Assembly (NCBI GenBank): GCA_000158135.1
Contig: DS999531.1
Span: forward strand, 2,212,051 to 2,276,050
DNA: 64,000 bases
Source: Rhodobacteraceae bacterium KLH11
GTDB taxonomy: Bacteria > Pseudomonadota > Alphaproteobacteria > Rhodobacterales > Rhodobacteraceae
Direction of reading: 5' to 3'
How positions within the stretch are numbered: position 1 is the first letter of the stretch; each line of letters begins with the position of its first letter. Shown here one piece after another: positions 40,272 to 52,110 of this stretch. The position numbers and the translations under genes were made by a program. The notes beneath the pieces were generated by a model. It was not told where the DNA came from. It worked only from the letters and a program-made list of their open reading frames with translations, and ran no database searches.

Positions 40272-40795
40272 TGACGGGTGCAAACACCGCCGGCGTCGAC
40301 AAAGAAGTCGCCACCCAGGCCCTGAATGCCGAGTTGCAGGACAAAGGGTTTCTGCTGACCTCGACCGAAGATATTATCAACTGGGCCCGCACCGGCTCGC
40401 TGCACTGGATGACCTTTGGTCTGGCCTGCTGCGCGGTTGAGATGATGCATACCTCGATGCCGCGCTACGACGCCGAACGTTTCGGCATCGCGCCCCGCGC
40501 CTCTCCGCGTCAGTCGGACGTGATGATCGTGGCCGGAACTCTGACCAACAAAATGGCCCCGGCGCTGCGCAAGGTTTACGACCAGATGCCCGAGCCGCGC
40601 TATGTGATCTCGATGGGCTCCTGCGCCAATGGTGGTGGGTATTACCACTATTCCTATTCGGTGGTGCGGGGATGTGATCGTATTGTGCCGGTCGATATCT
40701 ATGTGCCCGGCTGCCCTCCGACGGCTGAGGCATTGCTATACGGTCTGATGCAATTGCAACGCAAAATCCGCCGGACAGGGACGATTGTACGATAG
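40262..40795 (+). CDS. nuoB: NADH-quinone oxidoreductase subunit B
   Basis: Peripheral-arm subunit holding the terminal cluster N2, next to the quinone site. Ligands are in [19 protein letters not shown] and P-G-C-P-P-T-A-E. The start used gives 177 residues and overlaps the nuoA stop by ten bases. An ATG three codons later (overlap TGATG) is equally possible. An AT-rich unknown gene follows, overlapping its end by 11 bases. Confidence 0.97.
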
Positions 40796-41144
40796 GCTCA
40801 AATTATGTTTACACGAAAGCTGCACTTTGACTGACCAACTGAAGAAATACTTGGGCGCTGTTGCTATACTTATCCCAGTTGCAGGGTTTTTCGGCTATCG
40901 CGGGTTCGAGCAAAGTATCGAAAGCGTTGCAGTCGTTTGTCCGTCGTTGATTGAAGGGGGGGACTGCGTTTGTGTGACCGATAGGTTCAGAGAGAACTAC
41001 GGTGTGGTGCGTGGCGTATTGGAACACATGCCGATAGTCCAGCATGTTTCCAAAAACGATGATGGTCGTTTAATGTCGGCGCTTGAAAAAGCTGCCGGAC
41101 AATGTGGTGCACGTATGGTCAGTTTTGATGGGGACACTTCATGA
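40785..41144 (+). CDS. Orphan small membrane-associated protein between nuoB and nuoC
   Basis: Up to 119 residues; not recognised. No ATG is available. TTG at the given position overlaps the nuoB end by 11 bases, and a second TTG 14 codons later (L-T-D-Q-L-K-K-Y) is an alternative. One hydrophobic segment follows ([14 protein letters not shown]), then a polar domain with three cysteines (C-P-S-L, C-V-C-V) and a fourth near the end. GC is about 48% in the line I counted. Its TGA overlaps the nuoC start as ATGA. Coding is supported by length and exact fit, but expression is unproven. Confidence 0.55.
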
Positions 41145-41743
41145 GCGAAGCACTCAAGGAACTCGGCGCGCAGCTGGAACTGAAGCGGTCGGATTGTGTT
41201 CTGTCCTGGGATGTGACCCATGGTGAGTTGAATGTGGATGTGGCCCCGTCGAACCTTGTGGAGTTCGTTGAGTTCCTGAAATCCGACCGGTCCTGCCAGT
41301 TCTCGTCACTGGTAGACGTTACCGGCGTGGATTACCCCGAACGCGCCAAGCGGTTCGACGTGGTCTATCACTTCCTGTCGATGTATCAGAACCAGCGTAT
41401 CCGCCTGCGGGTTTCGATCCGTGAGGATGACATGGTGCCCTCGATTGTCGATGTTCACCCCTCGGCCAACTGGTTCGAGCGTGAGGTGTTCGACATGTTC
41501 GGCATCCTGTTCTCGGGCCATCCGGACCTGCGGCGCATCCTGACCGATTATGGCTTCCGCGGTTATCCGCTGCGCAAGGATTTCCCGACCACAGGGTATA
41601 CGGAAGTGCGGTATGACGAGGCGCAGAAGCGCGTGGTTTATGAGCCGGTCTCGCTGGTGCAGGAATACCGTCAATTTGATTTCATGTCCCCGTGGGAAGG
41701 GGCGAACTACATTCTGCCGGGGGATGAAAAACAGGAGTCGTAA
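41141..41743 (+). CDS. nuoC: NADH-quinone oxidoreductase subunit C
   Basis: A 200-residue peripheral-arm subunit (30-kDa type) that packs beside NuoD. The signature [27 protein letters not shown] is present in pieces from about residue 110. It is separate from NuoD, unlike the NuoCD fusion of Escherichia coli. The start codon overlaps the stop of the preceding orphan gene. Confidence 0.97.
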
Positions 41744-41746
41744 GCC

Positions 41747-41920
41747 ATGGAGTTCCTGATCTGGTTGGCTGTCACCGTTGCCACGATCATCCCGATGCTG
41801 AAACTGCTGCCGCATTTCGGGATCGAAAAATACTGGGTGGTCGCCTGTGTCATTCCCATTGGAACTCTGGTCCTGATCTGGATCATGGCCATGAAACTGC
41901 AAGAGATGGAGCGTCGCTGA
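41747..41920 (+). CDS. 57-residue membrane protein between nuoC and nuoD
   Basis: Begins M-E-F-L-I-W-L-A-V and ends Q-E-M-E-R-R. It has two hydrophobic stretches (about residues 3-21 and 30-48) joined by a short loop with H-F-G-I-E-K-Y-W. It starts three bases after the nuoC stop; GGAG lies 14 bases upstream and is shared with the nuoC end. Base composition and codon use match the nuo genes, so it is probably a long-standing member of the operon, like the unidentified reading frames known in Rhodobacter and Paracoccus nuo operons. Function unknown. Confidence 0.65.
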   Translation: MEFLIWLAVTVATIIPMLKLLPHFGIEKYWVVACVIPIGTLVLIWIMAMKLQEMERR

Positions 41921-41921
41921 G

Positions 41922-42050
41922 ATGCTGGGGGAACTGATCATTTTGGGCGCTCTTGGGGTGCTGCTTGCCGGGGCTGCTGCCAAGGCGCTTGAGGCGGAAA
42001 AGGCCCGGGTGCGGGCTGAAAAGAAGAACAACAAACGGGGGCGTCGCTGA
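41922..42050 (+). CDS. 42-residue small protein between nuoC and nuoD
   Basis: M-L-G-E-L-I-I-L-G-A-L-G-V-L-L-A-G forms one short membrane helix, followed by a helical, strongly basic tail (K-A-R-V-R-A-E-K-K-N-N-K-R-G-R-R). It begins one base after the 57-residue gene's stop and ends overlapping the next start as TGATG. A GAGCG-type site precedes it. High GC as in core nuo genes. It looks like a membrane-anchored helper; the role is unknown. Confidence 0.55.
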   Translation: MLGELIILGALGVLLAGAAAKALEAEKARVRAEKKNNKRGRR

Positions 42051-42268
42051 TGGATTTTGTCGAAGTGTCATTTCTCGATTTTTTGACGGTGATATCGGTG
42101 GGATTGGGCGCGTATGTTTTTTTGCTCGCACCTCTGCTGCTTGTGCTTCGCATCCAAAGGGTTCCAGCAAGTCGCGTAGCGCTTTGCTTATTGCCAATGA
42201 TTGGACCTGTAGTGCTAATTGTTACAACTATCGCTCGTGCGGAGCGTCGATATTCTGAGGTCTCATGA
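42050..42268 (+). CDS. Orphan 72-residue membrane protein before nuoD
   Basis: Two hydrophobic helices (about residues 9-33 and 43-61) with a short basic loop between them. No family recognised. It is AT-rich (about 45% GC in the line I counted), unlike the 42-residue gene before it and nuoD after it. Its start overlaps the previous stop (TGATG) and its TGA overlaps the first possible nuoD ATG. Same insertion pattern as the other AT-rich orphans. Confidence 0.55.
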
Positions 42269-43491
42269 TGGACGGCTCAAGATATGATGACGGCAGCACG
42301 GACGCGCTGAGCGGAGAACAGAAGATCCGCAACTTCAACATCAACTTCGGCCCGCAACACCCTGCTGCGCACGGGGTTTTGCGCCTTGTGCTTGAGCTGG
42401 ACGGCGAGATCGTCGAGCGCTGCGATCCGCATATCGGCCTGCTGCACCGTGGCACCGAAAAGCTGATGGAAAGTCGGACCTATCTGCAGAACCTGCCGTA
42501 TTTCGACCGTCTGGATTACGTGGCGCCGATGAACCAGGAACACGCCTGGTGTCTGGCCATCGAAAAACTGACCGGGGTCGAGGTGCCGCGCCGGGGTTCG
42601 CTGATCCGGGTTCTGTATTCCGAGGTCGGGCGCGTTCTGAACCACCTGCTGAATGTGACCACACAGGCGATGGACGTGGGCGCGCTAACCCCGCCGCTTT
42701 GGGGTTTTGAAGAGCGCGAAAAGCTGATGGTGTTTTATGAGCGTGCCTGCGGTGCCCGCCTGCACGCCGCCTATTTCCGCCCCGGTGGCGTCCATCAGGA
42801 CCTGCCGCCCGAACTGCTGGACGATATCGAGGCCTGGAGCCACGAATTCCCCGCCGTTCTCGATGACATCGACGGGTTGCTGACCGAAAACCGCATCTTC
42901 AAGCAGCGCAACGCCGATATTGGTGTGGTGACCGAGGATGACATCCAGAAATACGGCTTCTCGGGCGTGATGGTACGCGGATCGGGGCTGGCCTGGGATT
43001 TGCGTCGCGCACAACCCTATGAATGCTATGACGAATTCGAGTTCCAGATCCCTGTTGGCAAGAACGGCGACTGCTATGATCGCTATCTGGTGCGGATGGA
43101 GGAGATGCGCCAATCGCTGCTGATCATCCGTCAGGCCATCGCCAAAATCCGCGAGTGCCCCGGCGACGTTCTGGCGCGCGGCAAGATCACCCCGCCGAAA
43201 CGATCCGATATGAAGACTTCGATGGAGAGCCTGATCCATCACTTCAAGCTCTATACCGAAGGCTTCCACGTCCCTGCTGGCGAGGTTTATGCCGCCGTCG
43301 AAGCCCCCAAGGGCGAATTCGGCGTTTACTTGGTCGCCGACGGCACCAACAAGCCTTACAGGGCCAAATTGCGCGCGCCGGGTTTCCTGCATTTGCAAGC
43401 CATGGACCACGTGGCCGGAGGGCACCAACTGGCCGACGTCGCCGCGATCATCGGGACAATGGACGTTGTGTTTGGGGAGATTGATCGGTGA
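42268..43491 (+). CDS. nuoD: NADH-quinone oxidoreductase subunit D
   Basis: A 407-residue 49-kDa-type subunit forming the quinone pocket with NuoB. It has [10 protein letters not shown] with the pocket histidine, L-H-R-G-T-E-K-L near residue 61, and the C-terminal [10 protein letters not shown] choose the second of two adjacent ATGs because the GAGG ribosome site lies seven bases before it. The stop overlaps the next gene as GTGA. Confidence 0.97.
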
Positions 43492-43904
43492 AGAAGCTCT
43501 GGGCGTTTACCTTAGCTATCCTTCCTATGGGCCATGCGGTATCGGCGGCGCCTTTGAGTGATTTTTGCCTCTTTCTATCCCCAGACATTCTGGAGAAAGT
43601 AGCCGACTGTAGTGCAACGAAGGGTTGCTACCCGGTTGACGAGTTTCCGGAGGTATTCGAGCACTACAGATCGCTTGAAGAGCGCGCTTCGAACTATGTT
43701 TTGAGCAAATTAAGCTCATCAAAAAAATGCATGACCTACAGAGATTTGTTGGCGGGATCGGGCGTAGAGAACTGTTCCTCCGGACAAGTTCCATTTGTAT
43801 GGGCTATTTTCGACCTAGAAGCAGCTGAATTGATTTCGTCCAATAACTCAGATGATCCCGAGTTTTGGACACTTGGATTGGCAGAAAATGGGGAATGTGC
43901 TTAA
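43488..43904 (+). CDS. Orphan secreted cysteine-rich protein between nuoD and nuoE
   Basis: A 138-residue protein without recognised relatives. GTG start ([12 protein letters not shown]) and A-V-S-A-A cleavage region give a convincing signal peptide, so it should be periplasmic. The mature part has seven cysteines (F-C-L, D-C-S, G-C-Y, K-C-M, N-C-S, E-C-A and others), suggesting disulfides. A segment at 43681-43740 is only about 38% GC by my count. It overlaps nuoD as GTGA and nuoE as TAATG. A secreted protein inside a complex I operon is unexpected. Confidence 0.65.
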
Positions 43905-45262: not shown

Positions 45263-46564
45263 ATGATGCTGAAGGATCAGGACCGGATCTTTACCAACAT
45301 CTACGGCATGCATGAACGTACGCTGAAAGGCGCACAGGCCCGGGGGCACTGGGATGGCACTGCTGGCCTGATCAACAAAGGGCGCGACTGGATCATCCAG
45401 ACGATGAAGGATTCCGGCCTGCGGGGGCGCGGTGGTGCGGGTTTCCCGACGGGTCTGAAATGGTCATTCATGCCCAAGGAAAGCGACGGTCGCCCCTCTT
45501 ATCTGGTTGTGAATGCAGATGAATCTGAGCCCGGAACCTGCAAGGACCGCGAGATCATGCGCCATGATCCGCATACGCTGATCGAAGGGTGCCTGATCGC
45601 GTCGTTCGCGATGAATGCGCATACCTGCTATATCTACCTGCGCGGCGAATACATTCGCGAGCGTGAGGCGCTGCAGGCCGCGATTGACGAAGCCTATGAT
45701 GCCGGTCTTCTGGGCAAGAACGCCGCCGGTTCGGGCTGGGATTTCGACCTGTTCCTGCATCACGGGGCCGGGGCGTATATCTGCGGAGAGGAAACCGCCC
45801 TGATCGAAAGCCTTGAGGGCAAGAAGGGCATGCCGCGGATGAAACCTCCGTTCCCTGCGGGCGCGGGGCTCTATGGCTGCCCGACGACGGTGAACAACGT
45901 GGAATCCATCGCTGTCGTGCCGACCATCCTGCGCCGGGGCGCTGATTGGTTTGCAGGCTTTGGCCGTCAGAACAACGCAGGCACCAAGCTGTTTGCGATC
46001 TCGGGCCATGTGAACAACCCCTGCGTTGTCGAAGAGGCGATGTCGATTTCCTTTGAGGACCTGATTGAAACCCATTGCGGCGGCATTCGCGGCGGCTGGG
46101 ACAATCTGCTGGCCGTGATACCGGGCGGGTCCTCCGTGCCTTGTGTGCGCGGCGAGAACATGCGCGACGCAATCATGGATTTCGATTATCTGCGGGGCGA
46201 GCTGGGCTCGGGCCTTGGTACGGCGGCAGTGATCGTGATGGACAAGTCTACGGATATCATCAAGGCGATCTGGCGTCTGTCCAAGTTCTATAAACACGAA
46301 AGCTGCGGCCAATGCACGCCCTGTCGCGAGGGCACCGGCTGGATGATGCGCGTGATGGATCGTCTGGTGCGGGGCGAGGCCGAGCTGGAAGAGATCGACA
46401 TGCTGTTTGACGTGACCAAGCAGGTCGAAGGCCACACGATCTGCGCCCTTGGTGATGCGGCGGCCTGGCCCATTCAAGGTCTGATCCGAAACTTTCGGGA
46501 AGAGATCGAAGATCGCATCAAGGCCCAGAAATCGGGCCGTATGGGCGCGATGGCGGCAGAGTGA
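45263..46564 (+). CDS. nuoF: NADH-quinone oxidoreductase subunit F
   Basis: The 433-residue NADH-binding subunit with FMN and cluster N3. NADH/FMN site: [16 protein letters not shown] near residue 52, N-A-D-E-S-E-P-G-T near 87 and I-C-G-E-E-T-A-L near 174. Cluster ligands [12 protein letters not shown] near 347 and a distal Cys. Two consecutive ATGs could start it; the first has AAGG six bases away. Its end overlaps the upstream part of the reading frame leading to the next lipoprotein gene. Confidence 0.97.
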
Positions 46565-46632
46565 GCGGGGGTGCCGGGATGTTCAATTCAGCTGCAGATG
46601 TCACAAGCGCCAACCACGAAACAGGAGCGGGC

Positions 46633-46992
46633 ATGACAACGAGACGTGCAATCGCGATGACGATGTTTTTGGCGGGGGGGCTTCTTGTTTCGGCCTGCGG
46701 AACGGCACCGTCCAGCGCCACCCGGGTGGCGTTTGATGGTATTTATTTCAGTGCCAAGGCCAAACACGTCAACAAGAAAGCCACGCCTGCTGATTTCACG
46801 GTGACGGTAAACCGGGTTTCGCAGTCACTGGACGGCGCGCGAGAGGCCGGGCGGTATGAGGGCACAAAATTCTGCATTCAGAATTTCGGTTCATCCAGAA
46901 TCGCATGGAAGGTTGGCCCGGACACGAAGCCTCAGAATCTGCGCATCGAGAATGACAAGCTGACCTTCGCCGGAAGCTGCCAGCGCCCATGA
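46633..46992 (+). CDS. Hypothetical lipoprotein in the nuo operon
   Basis: A 119-residue unknown. The signal is M-T-T-R-R-A-I-A-M-T-M-F-L-A-G-G-L-L-V with lipobox L-V-S-A-C. The mature part has G-I-Y-F-S-A-K-A-K-H-V-N-K-K and a C-terminal C-Q-R-P that could pair with C-I-Q-N. I start at the ATG behind AGGAGC; the frame is open 24 codons further up, overlapping the nuoF stop, but that would bury the signal peptide. First of three consecutive exported proteins between nuoF and nuoG. Confidence 0.7.
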   Translation: MTTRRAIAMTMFLAGGLLVSACGTAPSSATRVAFDGIYFSAKAKHVNKKATPADFTVTVNRVSQSLDGAREAGRYEGTKFCIQNFGSSRIAWKVGPDTKPQNLRIENDKLTFAGSCQRP

Positions 46993-46999
46993 TCCACCG

Positions 47000-47079
47000 T
47001 ATCGCATATCAGGGCAGGCCCAATAAGCTGATATCGCATATCAGGCGCGTTGCAGATCGTCTTGGGAAACCCAAGACGA
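47000..47079 (+). repeat. Direct repeat and two hairpins before the first DUF5333-like gene
   Basis: TATCGCATATCAGG occurs twice, 32 bases apart. The second copy lies in a hairpin CTGATAT/ATATCAG. A second, stronger hairpin TCGTCTTGGG/CCCAAGACGA with an AAA loop ends one base before the AAAGGAA ribosome site. The arrangement could control translation of the next gene or mark an RNA processing point in the long nuo message. Confidence 0.55.
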
Positions 47080-47090
47080 AAGGAATCGCT

Positions 47091-47495
47091 ATGTCTTCTG
47101 TCAAACTTCTTGTCATGCTTTCTTTTATGGCTGTCCCTGCTATCGCTGAGGCAAAGCCGCCATTGAGGGATGTCAAAGAGATCGACAATGAACTCTACTA
47201 TATCGCCATCGCAAATGAGATTTCTGAATACTGCCCCTCGATCAGCGGGCGGCGGCTGAAAGCGATTGGTGTGATGTGGGGCCTGCGCTCAAAGGCCAAT
47301 GAAATGGGATATTCGGATACGGAAATTCGCGCCTACGTGGATTCCGACGCCGAAAAAGACCGGATGCGGGCCAAGGGCGAGGCTTATCTGGCGCAAAACG
47401 GCGTATCTTACGACAAGCCCAAGACCTTCTGCACGCTGGGCAGGAAAGAAATCGACAGAAACAGCGCGATCGGCGTGTATTTGAGGGCAAATTGA
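47091..47495 (+). CDS. DUF5333-like exported protein, paralogue 1
   Basis: A 134-residue protein with signal peptide M-S-S-V-K-L-L-V-M-L ending A-I-A-E-A before K-P-P. The mature domain has Y-I-A-I-A-N-E-I near residue 40, C-P-S-I, G-Y-S-D, and the closing F-C-T-L-G-R-K-E-I ... I-G-V-Y-L. It shares these marks with the next gene, so the two are tandem paralogues. I recall the family as DUF5333 in Rhodobacterales. Two conserved cysteines probably form a disulfide in the periplasm. Role unknown. Start chosen at the ATG behind AAAGGAA. Confidence 0.75.
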   Translation: MSSVKLLVMLSFMAVPAIAEAKPPLRDVKEIDNELYYIAIANEISEYCPSISGRRLKAIGVMWGLRSKANEMGYSDTEIRAYVDSDAEKDRMRAKGEAYLAQNGVSYDKPKTFCTLGRKEIDRNSAIGVYLRAN

Positions 47496-47498
47496 CGG

Positions 47499-47945
47499 AT
47501 GGGCGGTAAAATACTGAAATCCGGCGCATTTGGTGCGGCCATCCTGTTGGCGGTATCCGCGTGTCAGTCGACGCCTGCAGGTGATGCTGCGGCGCCGGGA
47601 TCGCGCGCGGAATTCCGCAGTGAACTGCCCCCGGAAGTCTATGATTTTGCCTTTGCAAACGCGATGGCTGAGCAGATTGTGAGCGGGTGCCGGTCCCTGA
47701 AACTGAACCGCTCGGCCGTTGCTGAAAAGACTGAAGCGCTTTCGCAAGAGTTCGAGGCCAGAGGCTATACAGAAAGCGATTTCCGTCATCTGGGCCGAAA
47801 TTTACCGCTCAAACGGCTGCAGGATGACACGATCCGGTATATCCAGACAAACGGCATTGTATTGAGTGACCCCAGCACCTTCTGCACCGCTGGCCAGCGC
47901 GAAATTGCCAACGGCACCCAGATCGGTGCATTCCTGAAAGGCTAA
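47499..47945 (+). CDS. DUF5333-like lipoprotein, paralogue 2
   Basis: A 148-residue relative of the preceding protein, but with a lipoprotein signal ([11 protein letters not shown]) in place of the cleavable one. It keeps the paired cysteines and the closing F-C-T-A-G-Q-R-E-I ... I-G-A-F-L. One paralogue would thus be soluble in the periplasm and the other membrane-anchored. It starts four bases after paralogue 1 ends and sits eight bases before nuoG. Function unknown. Confidence 0.72.
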
Positions 47946-51208: not shown

Positions 51209-51703
51209 ATGGCAAACGTTGACTATACCCGCGCCGCAAAATACTTCCTTTTGCAAGACTTTTGGGTCGGCATGAAGCTGGGGCTGAAGTATTTTTTCTC
51301 TCCCAAAGCCACCATCAACTACCCGCATGAAAAGGGTCCACTTAGCCCTCGTTTCCGGGGCGAGCATGCTCTGAGGCGTTACCCGAACGGTGAAGAACGC
51401 TGCATCGCCTGCAAACTGTGCGAGGCGATCTGCCCGGCGCAGGCCATCACCATCGACGCCGAACCGCGCGAGGATGGCAGCCGCCGCACCACGCGCTATG
51501 ACATCGACATGACCAAGTGCATCTATTGTGGTTTCTGCCAGGAGGCCTGCCCGGTCGATGCCATCGTCGAAGGCCCGAACTTCGAATTCGCCACGGAAAC
51601 CCGCGAGGAACTGTTTTACGACAAGGAAAAACTCCTGTCGAACGGCGAACGTTGGGAGGCTGAGATCGCCCGCAATCTGGAAATGGACGCGCCGTACCGA
51701 TGA
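51209..51703 (+). CDS. nuoI: NADH-quinone oxidoreductase subunit I
   Basis: A 164-residue ferredoxin-like subunit with two [4Fe-4S] clusters (N6a, N6b). Ligands are [12 protein letters not shown] near residue 65 and [12 protein letters not shown] near 105. Its stop overlaps the AhpD-like gene's start by four bases. Confidence 0.97.
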
Positions 51704-52110
51704 GTGACACGCCGACAAACCCCTTTGAGCTGATGATGAAGCAGGCGCAGGACATGGCCAAGGCGATGAACCCGGCGATGGAGAATTTCTCGCCTAAGGG
51801 GTTCGAGGCGCTGTGGCCGACCATGCCGAAAGAGGTCATGGAGATGATGTTCGGCAACACCGTCAACAAGGACGGGCTGGACGCCAAAACCCGTCTGCTG
51901 CTGACGCTGGCCGGGTTGACCTGTCAGGGCGCGCAGGCGGATGCGGCAGTGCGCCAGACCGTGCGTCATGCCTTGGAGGCAGGCGCCAAGAAACAAGAGA
52001 TCGTGGAAACGATCGGTCAGATGTCGGTCTTTGCCGGCATCCCGGCCATGACCCGCGCGCTGGATCTGGCGCAAGAGGTTCTGGGCGATAACGAGGATGA
52101 GGATCAATGA
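51700..52110 (+). CDS. Carboxymuconolactone decarboxylase/AhpD-like protein inside the nuo operon
   Basis: A 136-residue helical protein with the CMD core: [18 protein letters not shown] near residues 60-77, then [14 protein letters not shown] and I-V-E-T-I-G-Q-M near 108. AhpD uses a C-x-x-C pair as a peroxide-reducing centre; only one cysteine is present here, so redox catalysis of that kind is unlikely. Start and stop overlap nuoI and nuoJ by four bases each, showing tight coupling. It could be a complex I assembly or protection factor, which is inference. Confidence 0.78.

Follow-up and report, generated by a model that had tools for sequence, protein, structure and literature searches.

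A highly conserved operon of energy metabolism is usually treated as fixed. Inside the nqo/nuo operons of Paracoccus and Rhodobacter there are unidentified reading frames, and the accretion of ORFan genes into operons belongs to the ideas on how operons evolve. The locus studied here lies in a 64,000-nucleotide stretch of DNA from Rhodobacteraceae bacterium KLH11 (the window) and carries three small open reading frames, ORF1 to ORF3, between nuoC and nuoD. It resembles the Paracoccus and Rhodobacter frames in having extra genes between core complex I genes of Rhodobacterales, and differs from them in that, for the present locus, gene turnover, the exchange of alleles and an empty site could be demonstrated. 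Like operon-accreted ORFans, it involves short, AT-richer orphans inserted in old operons. Unlike these, however, the present inserts mostly keep overlaps of -4 or -1 bases with their neighbours and turn up repeatedly at particular junctions of a single operon, and the atp region, compared in 20 of these genomes, is free of length change. Searching the literature, mostly outside subscription journals, we found no text naming ORF1 to ORF3 at the nuoC-nuoD junction and no paper describing the extra frames of Paracoccus and Rhodobacter; the accessible part of PMC9696053 holds nothing on ORF1 to ORF3.

Accessory proteins of bacterial complex I have been described in Alphaproteobacteria. For the Paracoccus denitrificans structure, the accessible part of the report names only NDUFS4, NDUFS6, NDUFA12 and CI-PIMT as extra subunits (PMC11522691), of which CI-PIMT binds NDUFS3, the counterpart of NuoC, and is described there as confined, to date, to the enzyme of P. 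denitrificans. By comparison, ORF1 is a 57-residue membrane hairpin that matches no PDB chain and is known from sequence and a structural model. The binding of CI-PIMT to the NuoC counterpart, as given in that part of the report (PMC11522691), makes a lineage-specific accessory plausible in the case of ORF1, and is no test of ORF1 itself.

Layout and coding status of the nuoC-nuoD interval

The two nuo genes, the three frames, the TGATGG copies and the two further orphan inserts described below lie on the forward strand. ORF1 (41747..41920) follows nuoC (41141..41743) and encodes 57 amino acids in what we call a class C allele (see below). ORF2 (41922..42050) encodes 42 amino acids with an N-terminal hydrophobic stretch and a basic tail, and ORF3 (42050..42268) is an orphan of 72 amino acids that ends within nuoD (42265..43491). 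The spacings from nuoC through to nuoD are 3, 1, -1 and -4 bases, in agreement with the first-pass annotation, which had seen frames of 57, 42 and 72 codons tiling the gap at distances of 3, 1 and -1. The G+C content is.53 in ORF1,.62 in ORF2 and.47 in ORF3. Since the surrounding locus has.57, the third frame is AT-rich, as the annotation had put it. An AGGAG in the last codons of nuoC precedes ORF1.

We compared the window with 53 further genomes of its genus (54 operons). The genus is presumably Ruegeria, judging from the nearest named NuoC loci (97%). GGAG precedes ORF1 in 51 of 53 of these operons and ORF2 in 34 of 54. Wherever ORF1 is present (53 operons), it is 57 or 58 codons long, and ORF2 measures 39 to 45 codons in 53 of the 54 operons and 70 codons in the remaining one. 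Third codon positions account for.72 to.73 of the within-class differences in ORF1 and for.66 to.81 in ORF2. Stops or frameshifts in close relatives had been named as the observation that would speak against these genes. Judged by frame length, with each frame read to its first stop, this objection fails for ORF1 and ORF2: lengths are stable throughout the genus and differences fall mainly at third codon positions. Within allele classes B and A, the pN/pS of ORF1 is.07 and.08, respectively, compared with.08 and.05 for nuoC; between classes A and B, it reaches.60. The corresponding pN values of nuoD were not used, being inflated at least by one broken nuoD (L132). In this metagenome-derived locus (L007/L132), the nuoD match misses the N terminus even though the start is present, perhaps through an assembly error. 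By eye, hydrophobic stretches are found in all three products. On this point the annotation is supported: the genus counts and the selection on them mark ORF1 and ORF2 as real, conserved small genes with hydrophobic products, and for ORF1 a structural model points the same way.

In and around the stretch, a promoter scan found no promoter and an Rfam scan no family, RNA folding gave no structure excess (z 0.41), and one terminator-like site was detected, against an average of 1.0 in shuffles. ORF1 to ORF3 are thus presumably transcribed as part of the nuo mRNA, and their translation would be linked by stop-start coupling. That the stretch is non-coding, a spacer or an RNA element setting the translation of nuoD, is scarcely credible. 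The tight stop-start spacing at both of its sides would suit such an element, but the stable frame lengths, the codon-position bias and the low within-class pN/pS speak against it, and so do the blank promoter, Rfam and structure scans and terminators at shuffle level.

Distribution, relatives and allele classes of ORF1

ORF1 is found in 53 of the 54 genus operons. The exception, L121, retains a short remnant of its end between nuoC and ORF2. Among 295 genomes of the family, 75 have ORF1 relatives (E up to 0.01) and 220 lack them. We checked the positions of the nuo genes in the 74 other family genomes with a match, and 72 of the 79 family-sample matches sit between nuoC and nuoD, so that ORF1 does occur in the nuo operons of relatives, where the first-pass annotation had proposed to look for it. 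Of the rest, one lies behind nuoC with nuoD on a separate contig, two share contig and strand with nuoC but are 4 to 5 kb past it, three are at other places, and one comes from a genome that gave no match to nuoC. At the level of the order, relatives occur in 57 of 196 genomes, and the matches listed all belong to the same family.

In the class sample, the ORF1 profile matches 7 of 289 genomes, two of them in the family. A broader profile matches 46 of 385 class-sample genomes, and the proteins found are small two-helix proteins, often in tandem pairs. They share a motif like RxGxSxWxALxxxPxxNxxxLWxxAFxxWP and form a broad alphaproteobacterial small-protein family. At one place in another family, related to the window only at class level (L208/L214), the ORF1 homologue again lies between nuoC and nuoD. 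The 32 other higher-ranking class-level loci, which include some places counted twice, have no nuo gene within about 1.5 kb. Such wider relatives, often in tandem pairs, include those of L219, L224, L241 and others, and in some loci they follow a gene that looks by eye like rlmN or precede one that looks like argG.

The AlphaFold2 model of ORF1 is a helical hairpin with a mean pLDDT of 92. No PDB chain matched by sequence, and a fold search of the PDB with the model gave no match at E below 5. ORF1 scored above no curated cut-off in Pfam and NCBIfam and matched no PADLOC or PHROG family. We considered DUF4212, the small subunit of a sodium symporter, and rejected it because the scores are below cut-off (PF13937, 17.3 bits versus 30; TIGR03647, 14.9 versus 26.05), the match is weak and seen in 4 of 18 family members, and other membrane models are equally weak. 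The small membrane families DUF805 and DUF5684 (PF05656 and PF18936) are the nearest described likeness: they are weakly matched by 4 of 7 wider ORF1 relatives (E 1.1e-4 to 0.056), with 14.5 to 23.1 bits against cut-offs of 25.7 to 27.4. In contrast, neither ORF1 nor its 17 other family members match them, and ORF1 would represent a derived, nuo-resident branch.

The 53 ORF1 sequences of the genus, grouped by single linkage at.78, fall into class B (33 sequences), class A (16) and class C (4, including the window). Members of the same class are at least.86 (B),.84 (A) or.79 (C) identical, while identity between classes is.44 to.58 (A-B),.49 to.60 (B-C) and.63 to.72 (A-C). A and B are sharp classes, and C, that of the window, is a looser third. 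On a tree that FastTree built from 12 other nuo genes, from which L117 was left out for its contig end, the class changes at least 12 times, the minimum possible being 2. When classes were shuffled, the mean was 17.4 changes and none of 200 shuffles had as few as 12, indicating that the classes are partly inherited and partly switched. Two pairs of sister rows, L118/L127 and L119/L123, carry different classes.

Within classes, ORF1 distance rises with core distance (Spearman.39; nuoC.61). The ratio of fourfold-site differences between same-class and other-class pairs is.83 for ORF1 and.81 for ORF2, as compared with.94 to 1.01 for nuoC and nuoD. We found no conserved core-subunit residue that tracks the ORF1 class. 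The best normalised mutual information was.51, in the fast-changing FG1 protein, and the top class-associated columns are mostly in this protein, followed by the NuoE tail, ORF2, NuoG and NuoN. In a protein tree with other genera, which is limited by its few columns (57 residues) and an unsettled bootstrap, class B of Ruegeria forms one group (96/87) nested in a larger group (95/94) that also contains Roseobacter, Primorskyibacter and others. Class A joins a Tropicibacter and an uncultured relative (91/96), and class C is not firmly one group. We read the classes as old versions of one gene that are occasionally exchanged via short recombination tracts.

ORF2, ORF3 and inserts at other junctions

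ORF2 is present in all 54 genus operons and in few other genera. It matches 7 of 295 family genomes; two of these matches are weak and inside long frames, so that 5 are at the proper place. Pfam and NCBIfam scans found no family for it. Kinship with the single-helix ORFs of other genera was also considered, and has slight support, with an hhalign probability of 24% across 23 columns. ORF2 is a younger addition of the Ruegeria group, perhaps with a role related to that of ORF1.

ORF3 is carried by 2 of the 54 genus genomes, the window and L006/L124, which are not sisters on the operon tree. Between the two carriers, dS is.19 for ORF3,.29 for ORF1,.42 for ORF2,.48 for nuoD and.55 for nuoC, values that are rough for short genes. 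As ORF3 differs so much less than nuoC and nuoD in non-sisters, it was probably shared after the lineages had split. Its dN/dS is.43, from this one pair of short genes. Most of the displayed relatives free of the insert read ...CGTTGATGGACGGC... at the junction, and this empty site is clean in close relatives. In the window, the insert is bracketed by two copies of TGATGG, one at the ORF2 stop and ORF3 start (42048..42053) and one at the ORF3 stop and the start region of nuoD (42266..42271), each copy being the stop-start overlap. This suggests that ORF3 was inserted by short homology at the stop-start overlap, which would have left reading into nuoD intact.

We found no source for ORF3 in plasmids, phages or viral contigs (for the latter, close relatives only were sought), no homologue beyond a few relatives, other genera being covered through the best 80 of 582 NuoC loci, and no match in Pfam, PADLOC or PHROGs. 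On an hhalign profile comparison (probability 0.3%), we rejected the idea that ORF1 and ORF3 descend from one gene. ORF3 is most likely a passenger, with no sign of a complex I role.

We next consider the junction in a wider set, the best 80 of 582 NuoC matches, which come from Rhodobacterales and bins filed near them. The nuoC-nuoD distance ranges from -4 to about 2000 bases in these 80 loci, and ORF1 relatives are found in 39 of them (E below 1e-7). After leaving out L007, whose nuoD N terminus is unaligned, and L033, in which nuoD was not found, 78 were measured, of which 18 are without an insert (under 60 bases) and 60 carry one. In the 60 filled relatives, ORF tiling covers.986 of the insert, compared with.716 in dinucleotide shuffles, which were tiled in the same way because tiling favours short gaps. 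In 42 of these 60, the last insert ORF runs into nuoD by 4 or 1 bases (shuffles, 28%), and in 44 the first insert ORF overlaps the stop of nuoC (shuffles, 21%). Other inserts at this junction are single-helix peptides and sulfotransferase-like, GFA-type and Lumazine_bd_2/SnoaL-like genes, one example of each of the last three being identified by Pfam. The sulfotransferase-like genes, sometimes two, were recognised by eye in L025, L045, L049, L052, L054, L057, L067, L069, L070 and L072, and the one in L052 is that checked by Pfam. There are 52 rare clusters of insert ORFs (at most 11 members each), and the mean G+C of 33 of them lies between.46 and.52; some of the clusters are artefacts of the tiling, and signal-peptide or membrane-type starts were seen by eye in many of the others.

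Inserts over 90 bases also occur at other junctions within the genus: nuoB-nuoC (9 of 54 operons), nuoD-nuoE (23 of 54), nuoH-nuoI (5 of 53), nuoJ-nuoK (19 of 53) and nuoM-nuoN (1 of 53). At nuoA-nuoB, nuoK-nuoL and nuoL-nuoM, there is never one in the 54 genus operons. The window itself has two more AT-richer orphan inserts of the ORF3-like kind, one between nuoB and nuoC (40785..41144), shared with L131 (2 of 54), and one between nuoD and nuoE (43488..43904), with a signal-peptide-like start by eye and confined to the window (1 of 54).

Several further genes stand between nuo genes of the window. A lipoprotein-like gene (by eye; 46561-46992), located between nuoF and the DUF5333 genes and matched in all 54 genus operons, evolves very fast, with a pN/pS of about.5 to.7 over 52 aligned sequences. 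Two adjoining DUF5333 genes (46989-47495 and 47499-47945) lie upstream of nuoG, the second being matched in 42 of 54 operons, although some of these matches may be to the related first gene. Between nuoI and nuoJ there is a carboxymuconolactone decarboxylase-family gene (51700-52110), found in 53 of 54 genus operons, which overlaps by 4 bases the preceding gene in 50 of 52 and the following gene in 52 of 52 tiled operons.

Junction lengths more than 60 bases off the median amount to 65 of 338 in nuo, 0 of 160 in atp and 55 of 197 in suc. The nuo and atp controls come from the same 20 genomes. The suc set (20 genomes, L186 to L205) shares 19 of them because G309, with a partial sucC match, was replaced by G298. 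Median-based counts overstate change where two lengths are common, as at nuoD-nuoE, nuoJ-nuoK and likely some suc junctions, and some gene starts were wrongly set, which leaves the atp zero unaffected. With suc as variable as nuo and atp invariant, the nuo operon is insertion-permissive, but not uniquely so.

Possible roles of the stack

We give roughly even credence to the view that the stack arose by layered accretion at an insertion-permissive nuo junction, with ORF1 as an accessory, ORF2 as a younger layer and ORF3 as a passenger. ORF1 is the oldest layer. It encodes a two-helix inner-membrane protein, has its seat between nuoC and nuoD, is maintained by selection comparable in strength to that on NuoC, and appears to pass between species as entire allele versions on short recombination tracts. 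Most likely, it would serve as a dispensable accessory of complex I, helping the enzyme to assemble or stabilising it where the NuoC/NuoD arm meets the membrane. Its linkage to nuo genes across lineages, including one genome of another family, and its strong constraint together favour a role with complex I. On the other hand, ORF1 is not present wherever the lineage has complex I, and its absence from most of the family genomes and its loss in L121 indicate that the enzyme can do without it. The core subunits showed no covariation with ORF1, which is unexpected for an intimate partner, and together with the patchy presence and the loss this points to either a dispensable helper or an independent passenger. 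Nor is insertion into nuo by itself a sign of a complex I role, since the suc region has as many length changes. Also counting against such a role, no PDB chain resembles ORF1, the accessible part of the P. denitrificans report lists just four extra subunits, and the class-level loci examined, apart from L208/L214, lie away from nuo genes.

The strongest competitor, to which we give somewhat better than one chance in three's worth of belief, is that ORF1 and ORF2 are useful membrane proteins that work apart from complex I and are merely housed in a strongly expressed, insert-tolerant operon. The sulfotransferase-, GFA- and Lumazine_bd_2/SnoaL-like genes found at the same junction elsewhere fit this idea, as do the equally variable suc-region junctions, the wider ORF1 relatives examined, which mostly lie away from nuo genes, the missing core-subunit covariation and the absence of ORF1 from 220 of 295 genomes. 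A pure passenger, however, would be expected at other places too, and nearly all family matches are between nuoC and nuoD, under a constraint that resembles that of NuoC. The first-pass annotation had suggested that small proteins made between nuoC and nuoD could act during assembly, where NuoC and NuoD touch. As a joint action of all three, this is very improbable: gene order, tight spacing and hydrophobic products agree with it, but the frames differ in age and distribution, ORF3 occurs in only 2 of 54 genus genomes, ORF1 and ORF3 are unrelated, and 18 of the 78 relatives measured among the best 80 of 582 loci have no insert at all. Unrelated genes at the junction, the loss of ORF1 in L121 and the lack of any class-tracking core residue also oppose it. 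What may survive of the proposal is an assembly role for ORF1, which is possible, while the same role is unlikely for ORF3.

Negative frequency-dependent selection could also keep the ORF1 classes, for example if a phage, toxin or inhibitor attacked the respiratory membrane via ORF1, which would then be a target or a shield and not an aid to assembly. We consider this improbable, if slightly less so than a joint role of the three proteins. Discrete classes with lineages beyond the genus, repeated switches, strong constraint inside A and B and an exchange signal confined to ORF1 and ORF2 are what such selection would produce; against it stand the blank PADLOC and PHROG searches and a class history made uncertain by 57 residues and few columns. 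Returning to ORF1 as an accessory in a layered stack, we put forward only tentatively, and as rather unlikely in this full form, that it is an exchangeable complex I hairpin bound to the foot of the peripheral arm, of which Rhodobacteraceae keep a few discrete versions and exchange them among species in short cassettes. If this were true, an otherwise invariant respiratory enzyme would carry a trans-species polymorphism.

Overall, the nuo operon is here a site of gene gain, where small genes enter certain junctions and most keep stop-start overlaps, and one such small gene appears to exist as a few old versions exchanged between species. Two questions can thereby be put directly to the test: by what route a new gene can join an operon while the gene behind it continues to be translated, and whether bacterial complex I has small membrane partners peculiar to single lineages, which would escape notice when the enzyme is purified from a handful of model species.
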